DNA of 64,000 bases, from contig JAOAPV010000064.1 of assembly GCA_025463055.1 (NCBI GenBank), positions 62,001-126,000 of the forward strand, given 5' to 3'. A program made the position numbers and the translations under genes. This document shows, piece after piece, positions 39,139 to 41,983 of the stretch (positions within the stretch are counted from its first letter, which is position 1; every line of letters begins with the position of its first letter). The DNA is from Candidatus Acidiferrum typicum. Its GTDB lineage: Bacteria; Acidobacteriota; Terriglobia; Acidiferrales; UBA7541. The notes below the pieces were generated by a model. It worked only from the letters and a program-made list of their open reading frames with translations. It searched no databases and was not told the origin of the DNA.

Positions 39139-40332
39139 CTATCCCTTTTTGCGTTTTGCTGGCTTCGCGGGTGATTTTCTTGGCGGCCTCGAACTGCGCC
39201 CGCCACGGTCGGCGGCCGCTACGGTTGCACGCATCTTACGGTCCCTCGCTTGACTAGCACTCTTCTGGGATTTTACTTGCTGCGCTACCTTTTTCTTGGC
39301 AGCGGCGGTTAGCATCGAGAAGCCTTTTGCAGCTTCGGGGGCTTGGTCCTTCAGGCCGGCAAATTCCCAGAGCGCGGCAACATTGCGGCGGTCGTCGCCG
39401 GGATCGTCGATTGGTGTCTCGGCCAGGAATGCACGGCCGATGAGGCCTTCGGGTGCGGCGGAGCTGAGACGCGGATGGGTGAGAAAACGGCGAAACGCTT
39501 CCTGGCCGATTTTGCCCTTGCCGATGTGCTCGTGGCGATCCACACGGCCGCCGAGCGGAATTTTGGAGTCGTTGATGTGAAAGACTGGGACGCACTCGAG
39601 GTCAATGGCCCGGTCAATCAGTTCGAGTGTGGAGGCAAGACCGGCTTCGCTCTTGATGTCGTAGCCCGCAGCAAAAAGATGCGCGGTGTCGATGCACGCG
39701 CCGACTTGAAGATTTCTCAGTGCGTGCAACACCTCGCCGAGTTCTTCCAAGCGCGCGCCGAGTGCGGTGCCCATGCCTGCGGTGTTTTCCAGCAGGATGC
39801 GAAGCGAAGTAGGCGGGAGATTTTTTGCGGCCTGCTTGACCGATTCCACCGCGAGCCGCGCGGCTTGGTCGGGCCTGCAATCGCCGCACGCGCCGGGATG
39901 CACGACCACGAAATCCGCGCCAAGCGCGATACCACGAACGAGCTCGTCGTGAAAGGCCTGAATCGAGCGGGTGCGCAGCATGGGTTGCTGTGCCGCTAGA
40001 TTGATCAAATAATTTGCATGGATGACGAGAGGGCCCAGGCCGAGGGCTGCTCGGCGGGCGCGAAACGCAGCGCCATCCACTTCGGTTACGCGTGACGGAC
40101 CGCCAGCCCACATGCGCGGGTTGGTCGAGAAAATTTGCAAAGCGTTGCAACCGAGCTTGTGCGCCGACTCCAGCGCGTTGAGGTGGCCGCCCGCGATAGA
40201 GGTGTGAATCCCGATGCGCATGCTGCCGTCCATCCAGTTCGGCGGCGCGGGCTCGGGTTCAGGTTCGGGGCGGTACTCGTCTTCCGGGTCGAATTCGATG
40301 ACGTTTGTGAGGGGCTGTTCAGGCATTCCCAA
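39139..40332 (-). CDS. nfo: Deoxyribonuclease IV (AP endonuclease IV) with N- and C-terminal extensions
   Basis: MRIGIHTSIAGGHLNALESAHKLGCNALQIFSTNPRMW, CIDTAHLFAAGYD, HINDSKIPLGGRVDRHEHIGKG. Confidence 0.92.
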   Translation of the reverse strand: MGMPEQPLTNVIEFDPEDEYRPEPEPEPAPPNWMDGSMRIGIHTSIAGGHLNALESAHKLGCNALQIFSTNPRMWAGGPSRVTEVDGAAFRARRAALGLGPLVIHANYLINLAAQQPMLRTRSIQAFHDELVRGIALGADFVVVHPGACGDCRPDQAARLAVESVKQAAKNLPPTSLRILLENTAGMGTALGARLEELGEVLHALRNLQVGACIDTAHLFAAGYDIKSEAGLASTLELIDRAIDLECVPVFHINDSKIPLGGRVDRHEHIGKGKIGQEAFRRFLTHPRLSSAAPEGLIGRAFLAETPIDDPGDDRRNVAALWEFAGLKDQAPEAAKGFSMLTAAAKKKVAQQVKSQKSASQARDRKMRATVAAADRGGRSSRPPRKSPAKPAKRKKG

Positions 40333-40399
40333 TGAGAATTTCTGCTCCGTACTAAACTCACTATTCTAGCATACAGGGCGAATGGGCGCGTTTTTGCGC

Positions 40400-40760
40400 A
40401 TTTAGGGGTAGTGGGTCAGCTCGAACTGGCGGTGTGTGGACGGTGGGGTAATTGGCTGGGCTGTTGGTGCATAATGCGGCTGAGGCACTGGCATGAAGTT
40501 AGGGATGAACTATACGCACTATGATTCAGGACAACTAGGGGTGGGCGTGTTTTTCGTTGCCTTTGCCATTACTGGGGCGATTCTCTTACTACCTGGAGCA
40601 GCGAAGTCATCTTCTGCCGTTCTGTACATACTCATCTTCGGTGGCTTGTTTGTGGGAGTTCCGGCAACGCTCGGTCTCGGAGTAATTCTGGCACAGCTCA
40701 AACTCCGGAAGAATCAGTACCGACGGGAAAAAACTTCAAACTGACCCACTACCCATTTAG
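40400..40760. mobile_element. Small TIR-bounded element (MITE-like) with cargo ORF; body 40406-40754, TSD ATTTAG
   Basis: GGGTAGTGGGTCAG (40406-40419) and CTGACCCACTACCC (40741-40754) perfect 14-bp TIRs, flanked by ATTTAG at 40400-40405 and 40755-40760. Confidence 0.75.
40493..40744 (+). CDS. Small two-TM hypothetical membrane protein carried by TIR element
   Basis: 83-aa ORF with two hydrophobic helices; TGA stop (40742-40744) lies within right TIR. Confidence 0.55.
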   Translation: MKLGMNYTHYDSGQLGVGVFFVAFAITGAILLLPGAAKSSSAVLYILIFGGLFVGVPATLGLGVILAQLKLRKNQYRREKTSN

Positions 40761-40954
40761 GGTTGAAAAAGCCTCAGGTCCAAAAAGCGACCCTTCGAAA
40801 CTCAGGGTAAGCCTGAGCCACAGGCTCTTGTGTCAACGTCGGTAGCGGGGCTAGCACCGTAAAAGCGGGAGCAAGACTGGCGCACTGCAAAATTTGCGGG
40901 GGTGCGGTGGGTAGCTTACAGTAGAGGTTTACCGAATCAGCTTAGGAGTAAGGG

Positions 40955-41983
40955 ATGCTCGTGGTAATGCAGTCGCATGCTTCGGAGGAGCAGGTGCGCG
41001 CGGTTTGCCAGCGCATCGAGAGTCTTGGGCTGAAGGCGCATCCGATTCCGGGAACGATTCGGACGGCTATAGGCATTACGGGTAACAAGGGCGCGGTTGA
41101 TTTGGGCGTGCTCGAGTCGCTGCCTGGCGTGATCGAGTGCATTCCGGTCAGCAAGCCGTACAAGTTGGTGAGCCGCGACGCGAAAGAGGAAGATAGCGTT
41201 CTGCGCATCCCGACGCCGTCGGGCGACGTGATCGTCGGTGGGGACAAAATTGCGCTAGTCGCGGGTCCGTGCGCGGTAGAAAGCGAAGAGCAGGTATTTG
41301 CGATCGCGGAGCGCGTGGTGAAGAGCGGCGTGCGGCTGTTTCGCGGCGGCGCTTACAAGCCACGCACTTCCCCGTATAGCTTTCAGGGCCTGGGCGAGCC
41401 GGGGCTGAAGATTTTGGCGAAAGTTCGTCAGAAATTTGGATTTGGGATTATCACCGAGGCTATCGATAACGAAAGCCTGGACCTGGTCGAGGAATACGCG
41501 GACGTGATCCAGATTGGCGCGCGGAATATGCAGAATTTTTCGCTGCTGAAGCGCGCTGGGCGAGCCAAGAAACCGGTGCTGCTGAAGCGCGGGATGTCCG
41601 CCACCCTGGATGAGTTTTTGATGGCGGCGGAATATGTGCTGTCCGAGGGAAATTACAACGTGATGCTTTGCGAGCGGGGCGTGCGCACGTTTGCGGATCA
41701 TTCGCGGAACACGCTGGATTTGACGATTGTGCCGGCGGTGAAGAAGCGCAGCCATTTGCCGATTCTGGTTGATCCATCGCATGGGACTGGGAAGCGGCAT
41801 AAGGTGCTGCCGCTTTCGCGGGCGGCGATTGCCGTGGGCGCAGACGGCTTGCTGGTCGAGGTGCATCACGAGCCGGACAAGGCGCTTTCGGACGGGATGC
41901 AATCGATTTTGCCGGAGGAATTTGCCGAGCTTACGGAAGAAGTGCGGCAGATTGCTGCGGTGCTGCACCGCCAGGTGAATTGA
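40955..41983 (+). CDS. aroF: 3-deoxy-7-phosphoheptulonate synthase
   Basis: [46 protein letters not shown]. Confidence 0.95.

Follow-up and report, generated by a model that had tools for sequence, protein, structure and literature searches.

The element and its insertion site

The window, a stretch of 64,000 nucleotides from Candidatus Acidiferrum typicum (contig JAOAPV010000064.1, positions 62,001 to 126,000), contains a short element located between an nfo-like gene coding for a xylose-isomerase-like TIM barrel (minus strand) and a DAHP-synthase gene (plus strand). The initial annotation, made from the sequence alone, described this region as a compact segment bounded by inverted and direct repeats. 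Reading of the bases confirmed the inverted repeats at the proposed positions, and the body of the element is indeed less GC-rich than its surroundings, at 52% compared with about 60% for the genes on either side. The element also lacks a transposase, as had been noted; its sole sizeable open reading frame (ORF), of 83 amino acids, has no transposase match.

The bases at the two ends fit two readings, namely a 14-bp terminal inverted repeat (TIR) with a 6-bp target site duplication (TSD), or a 13-bp TIR, GGTAGTGGGTCAG, with an 8-bp TSD, CATTTAGG, because the duplication starts with C and finishes with G. We analysed 76 TIR pairs comprising all ends in the fetched loci that carried at most a single mismatch, every end being joined to its nearest partner and the flanks being ignored in this choice. 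Exact flank identity was observed at 8 bp in 37 of the 76 pairs (chance expectation 0.001), at 7 bp in one and at 4 bp in one, while none of these unselected pairs had exact identity at 5, 6 or 9–14 bp. Since 8 bp alone is enriched in the family, the 8-bp reading was adopted, and the element spans positions 40407–40753 (347 bp; Table 1). The G at 40406 and the C at 40754, which form the outer base of the 14-bp repeat, are part of the duplication, and so are the C at 40399 and the G at 40761. The 14-bp repeats and 349-bp segment originally proposed were therefore correct in location, with an extent that has to be reduced to 13 and 347 bp, and the 6-bp ATTTAG duplication gives way to the 8-bp one set by the family pairs. 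The weak similarity seen inward of the repeats proved to be a decayed form of the family consensus CAGTTTGAA, the left end of the window element reading CAGCTCGAA.

Table 1. Positions of the element and its parts in the window, and loci of complete relatives and of recurrent passenger ORFs
Feature	Position or locus	Strand	Description
Whole element	40407..40753	.	347 bp, 52% GC, without transposase; missing at the orthologous site of congener G022; single copy in its own genome
Left TSD, CATTTAGG, 8 bp	40399..40406	.	same as 40754–40761; the family TSD length is 8 bp; CATTT occurs once in the G022 empty site
Left TIR, GGTAGTGGGTCAG, 13 bp	40407..40419	+	exact inverted match to 40741–40753; decayed similarity to about 40427
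GAGG, possible ribosome-binding site	40482..40485	+	7 nt ahead of the ORF ATG, read directly
83-aa ORF, two predicted transmembrane helices	40493..40744	+	putative gene; stop TGA at 40742–40744 within the right TIR
Right TIR, CTGACCCACTACC, 13 bp	40741..40753	-	inward extension TTCAAA agrees with the family consensus
Right TSD, CATTTAGG, 8 bp	40754..40761	.	same as 40399–40406
Complete element with IS1-like ORF	L118		ends identical or nearly so, perfect 8-bp TSD CCGGGACA
Complete element with IS1-like transposase	L119		as above, TSD AAACTTTG
Complete element with IS1-like transposase	L117		as above, TSD TGGCGCGC
Complete element with IS1-like transposase	L090/L120		as above, TSD CGTCAGCG
Complete element with IS1-like transposase	L212		as above, TSD GAGATGCA
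Complete element with IS1-like transposase	L234		as above, TSD AAAATTCT
Complete element with IS1-like transposase	L259		as above, TSD CGGCATCG
Small basic passenger ORF	L122:2739–3017; L118:318–545; L212:4393–4671; L259:4702–4950; L268:3689–4078		

A search with positions 39900–41300 recovered the nfo-like/DAHP-synthase region, at least partly, in all 36 genomes of the genus. In the congener G022, both flanks adjoin on one contig with 81–83% identity, and the matches are separated by 10 bases, compared with 365 in the window; the pairwise alignment reads ...TTTTTGCTCATTT, followed by the downstream flank. Removal of the element and of one TSD copy from the window leaves a sequence of the G022 length, CATTTAGGGTTGAAAAAGCC in the window and CATTTTGTGCGGGAGAAGCC in G022 (20 bases each), a comparison that was read by eye, the aligner having put the ten G022 bases inside the element. 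The G022 locus is thus a natural unoccupied site, with a single target copy that has diverged after CATTT, of the kind that the initial annotation had suggested looking for in close relatives. In G006, G007 and G010, the matched flanks are too close together to hold the element.

An intergenic repeat some 60 bp long and dispersed in the genome (CCTCAGG...CCCTTCGA..CTCAGGGT..CCTGAGC) starts a few bases past the right TSD, at window positions 40766–40824. It was also found elsewhere in the window's own genome (G000; C45:7948–8007 and C41:15050–15106) and on the G022 contigs C149, C263, C240 and C564.

Elements with the same ends and their transposase

The end motif AAANTGACCCACTACC was detected in 48 of 89 family genomes, compared with 2 of 89 for a reversed control pattern. 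Two-ended elements were gathered from the family loci and from a scan of named genomes, which over all loci gave 62 TIR pairs that span 51 bp to 4.4 kb and are spread over several phyla, a set selected for a perfect 8-bp TSD in which a few pairs are overlapping composites; the family loci contributed 43 pairs when one TSD mismatch was allowed. Carriers of these ends include Acidobacteria, Nitrospira, Mesorhizobium, Pseudorhodoplanes, Deltaproteobacteria, and Zixibacteriota. The elements fall into gene-free MITEs of 51 bp and of 66–69 bp, single-gene cassettes of about 275–1000 bp, and elements of 1.9–4.4 kb, mostly with a transposase. MITEs of 66–69 bp with the same ends are present in many relatives (L006, L020, L036, L049, L005 and L007), several of them without a recognisable duplication.

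Same-ended elements with duplications of their own, proposed at the outset as a check on mobility, therefore exist, and more than a hundred such ends surround different bodies. The same check applied to the window element's own body gave a negative result: the exact body is present once in its own genome and in none of 40 relatives, and a BLASTN search of plasmids with the element returned no match. A literature search on the end sequence yielded nothing on bacterial mobile elements, and the end family was not met in the open-access literature searched, which does not show that the family is undescribed. The single-copy body would be compatible with an immobile intergenic sequence in which a chance inverted repeat happens to coincide with a chance direct repeat; however, this explanation is refuted by the empty site in G022 and by the statistics of the 8-bp TSD, as well as by the recurrence of the ends around different bodies, and its probability is negligible. 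Mobility of the window element is well supported by these comparisons.

In L004, the first relative found, the right end is located at the 3' end of an ORF matching DDE_Tnp_IS1 (PF03400) above the cut-off, while the match to the NCBIfam IS1 model (NF033558) was below it, with 55.9 of 100 bits. All transposases tested from complete relatives match PF03400 above the cut-off. Besides the L004 enzyme, eleven transposases were aligned that are 55–66% identical to it. Residues D62, D134 and E198 (numbered after the first sequence) are kept in the motifs CDEIWSF, TTDG and SYVERQN across the aligned transposases and probably constitute the catalytic triad. At least seven elements have a transposase gene whose stop codon is the TGA of the right repeat, 9 nt from the element end. 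Autonomous elements with matching TIRs, which the initial annotation had suggested looking for, were thus identified in other genomes, those given in Table 1 being a non-exhaustive selection. An early assignment to IS21-type ends, based on resemblance, was dropped, the transposases of the complete elements being IS1-like.

No homologue of the IS1-like transposase was detected in the window's own genome, a 146-contig draft, either by a single-sequence search, which recovered 34 relatives, or by a second search run without a positive control. The element would therefore have moved in trans, or the source of the enzyme has been lost or left unassembled. We infer that the same IS1-like transposase moved the window element and that the enzyme was encoded by an element that has since disappeared from this genome or is missing from its assembly. 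The enzyme, supplied in trans, would have inserted the element between the nfo-like and DAHP-synthase genes, making staggered cuts 8 bp apart in the target and leaving CATTTAGG duplicated. Mobilisation by an enzyme from a different transposase family whose ends are similar would also accord with the lack of the enzyme in this genome, and neither the end sequence nor the TSD length is by itself proof of the enzyme, but the same IS1-like transposase recurs in the larger same-ended elements whose ORFs were inspected, which makes another family improbable.

Altogether, we interpret positions 40407–40753 as a non-autonomous IS1-type transposable element with IS1-like ends and no transposase, mobilised in trans, with a probability of about 0.93. 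The lack of a second copy of the body, the lack of a transposase in the same genome and the NCBIfam IS1 match below the cut-off were counted against this reading. The guess made from the raw sequence has thereby become an insertion demonstrated together with its empty site.

The 83-residue ORF and the cargo of related elements

The ORF of the window element, its two hydrophobic helices and its TGA stop inside the right TIR were all found as first described. The predicted product has hydrophobic stretches at about residues 12–39 and 36–71 and a basic C-terminus, and the stop codon lies 9 nt from the element end, the position at which the transposase genes of complete elements terminate. ORFs of two sister elements, L038 (203 aa) and L039 (66 aa), end at the same place. 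If it is a gene, the ORF would encode a small two-helix membrane protein whose final codons and stop are supplied by the right repeat.

Its coding status is unproven, with the chances near even. Alternatively, the same mobile element could be a MITE-like remnant in which the ORF is accidental, a possibility that is a variant within the best explanation and not a competitor to it, and that we rate slightly short of an even chance. When the element was shuffled by dinucleotides, 194 of 2000 sequences contained an ORF of equal or greater length, and the size of the 83-aa ORF is therefore not significant by itself; its GC3 is 0.50 against 0.68–0.73 in the neighbouring genes, a promoter scan found no sigma-70-like site, and MITEs of 51–152 bp without genes are numerous among the sister elements. 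Nor was a convincing homologue of the 83-aa protein recovered by the tBLASTn search that the initial annotation had recommended: genomes of the class (399), the order (95) and the phylum (396) gave only weak matches of the membrane-segment type, plasmids gave none, and comparison with Pfam, NCBIfam, PHROGs and PADLOC gave nothing above the cut-off. On the other hand, the ORF takes up most of the element and is preceded by a plausible GAGG, its translation shows two well-formed hydrophobic helices and then a basic tail, it stops where the transposases and at least two cargo ORFs of sister elements stop, and transposase-free sister elements do hold recognisable genes. The proposal of a non-autonomous element with a cargo gene hence stands as regards the non-autonomous mobile element, while the cargo gene is unproven.

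The recognisable genes of transposase-free cassettes encode a glyoxalase-like protein (L026, from the same genome as the window), an outer-membrane barrel (L025), and MOSC (L071) and RibD_C (L075) proteins. Transposase-bearing elements carry P63C, HTH plus M78, and AAA genes. The best PADLOC matches, to SoFic (L123:240–1385), PD-Lambda-2_B (L261:4939–6084) and HEC-04 (L205:1961–3445), are profile matches to individual genes and not demonstrated defence systems; judging from these profiles, transposase-bearing relatives may spread phage-defence genes. Locus L139:240–1385 contains an ORF like the SoFic-matching one of L123. A small basic passenger ORF of about 75–130 aa recurs beside the transposase in many complete elements (Table 1), with MPDRSKKRPRDPN... 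in some and a C-terminus of ...AAKARW or similar.

Adjacent elements and comparison with known systems

Some elements of this set are arranged side by side. Among 252 unique exact ends with enough flank, another outward end lies exactly 8 bp away in seven cases and 7 bp away in two more, at least one of the latter (L038) being an 8-bp duplication with a shifted end, while all other gaps from 0 to 69 bp account for two cases together. A second element is 8 bp off at about 3.5% of ends, a rate that applies to loci collected via their ends and is not a genome-wide estimate, because the collection was built by searching for ends. Two chains were resolved as TSD-A-TSD-B-TSD with three identical TSD copies, L019:1493–2546 (GCCTGTCC) and L295:444–1065 (GAAAATAG). 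On contig C23 of the window's own genome (L026:1493–2270, L063), the glyoxalase cassette is followed by ATCAGTTG and then by a decayed end; a third copy of the duplication was not found there. Other side-by-side pairs sharing a single 8-bp duplication are L055, L273, L038, L033 and L046, the junctions of L297 and L033 being weaker (11 of 16). L081 was left out, since it resembles a chance 8-bp spacing.

In the simplest reading, chains arise when an element inserts at the junction of one already resident, which is not unheard of, since IS30 likewise inserts beside its own inverted repeats (PMC9333248). One could speculate further that soil bacteria and other bacteria of the environment share a general system of single-gene cassettes made up of these elements, in which new copies prefer the TSD of a resident one and cassettes come to line up as TSD-A-TSD-B-TSD, much like integron arrays but driven by a transposase, with the window element as one solitary cassette; we consider this rather unlikely.

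The window element itself is ordinary in kind, a non-autonomous IS1-type element, and the interest lies mainly in the surrounding family. Same-ended elements are widespread and many carry single genes. The analysis ties the window element to a large IS1-type set with common ends and widely differing genes (glyoxalase-like, MOSC, RibD-like, outer-membrane barrel, SoFic-like, PD-Lambda-2-like), offers GGTAGTGGGTCAGTTT plus an 8-bp duplication as a search key for small mobile cassettes missed by gene-based annotation, and raises the testable question of insertion beside resident ends.

ISAba3-like IS1 elements have a TIR of GGTGGTGTTTCA... and an 8-bp TSD (PMC6382973). The complete relatives of the window element resemble this IS1 family in the PF03400 DDE transposase, the GGT(A/G)GTG...TCA ends and the 8-bp TSD; the IS1-type DDE enzyme is found in same-ended complete elements, and the TSD is within about 8–9 bp. 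In contrast to IS1 family members, the window element has no transposase, the enzymes of its relatives fall under the NCBIfam IS1 cut-off, and most of its complete relatives measure 1.9–4.4 kb and contain passenger genes. Transporter insertion sequences (tIS) carry passenger genes besides a transposase (PMC9330008); the autonomous relatives, with both between the shared ends, fit this description, whereas the window element, without a transposase, counts as a derivative rather than a tIS proper.

MITEs such as MITEAba12 of Acinetobacter, which has near-constant bodies of 111–114 bp, ISAba12 ends and a 9-bp TSD (PMC6382973), are likewise short and non-autonomous, with a TSD and with the TIR alone shared with the parental IS. 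Unlike in MITEAba12, bodies in the present set vary in nearly every copy and some carry genes. MITEs are short, gene-free and repeated in near-identical copies, while the window body occurs once in its own genome; the sister elements of 66–69 bp fit the MITE description better. Mobile insertion cassettes (MICs) are defined by IS-like ends, a TSD, a gene replacing the transposase and movement in trans (PMC3913671). The window element has IS-related inverted repeats, a TSD and no internal transposase gene, in common with MIC231 of Bacillus cereus and mic-qnrD of Proteeae. MIC231 is moved by the IS231A transposase, and mic-qnrD has 24-bp repeats and a 2-bp duplication, whereas the window element has IS1-like ends, an 8-bp duplication, a putative gene and a presumed mobilisation in trans. 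The window element would thus be MIC-like if the ORF is a gene, and MITE-like otherwise.
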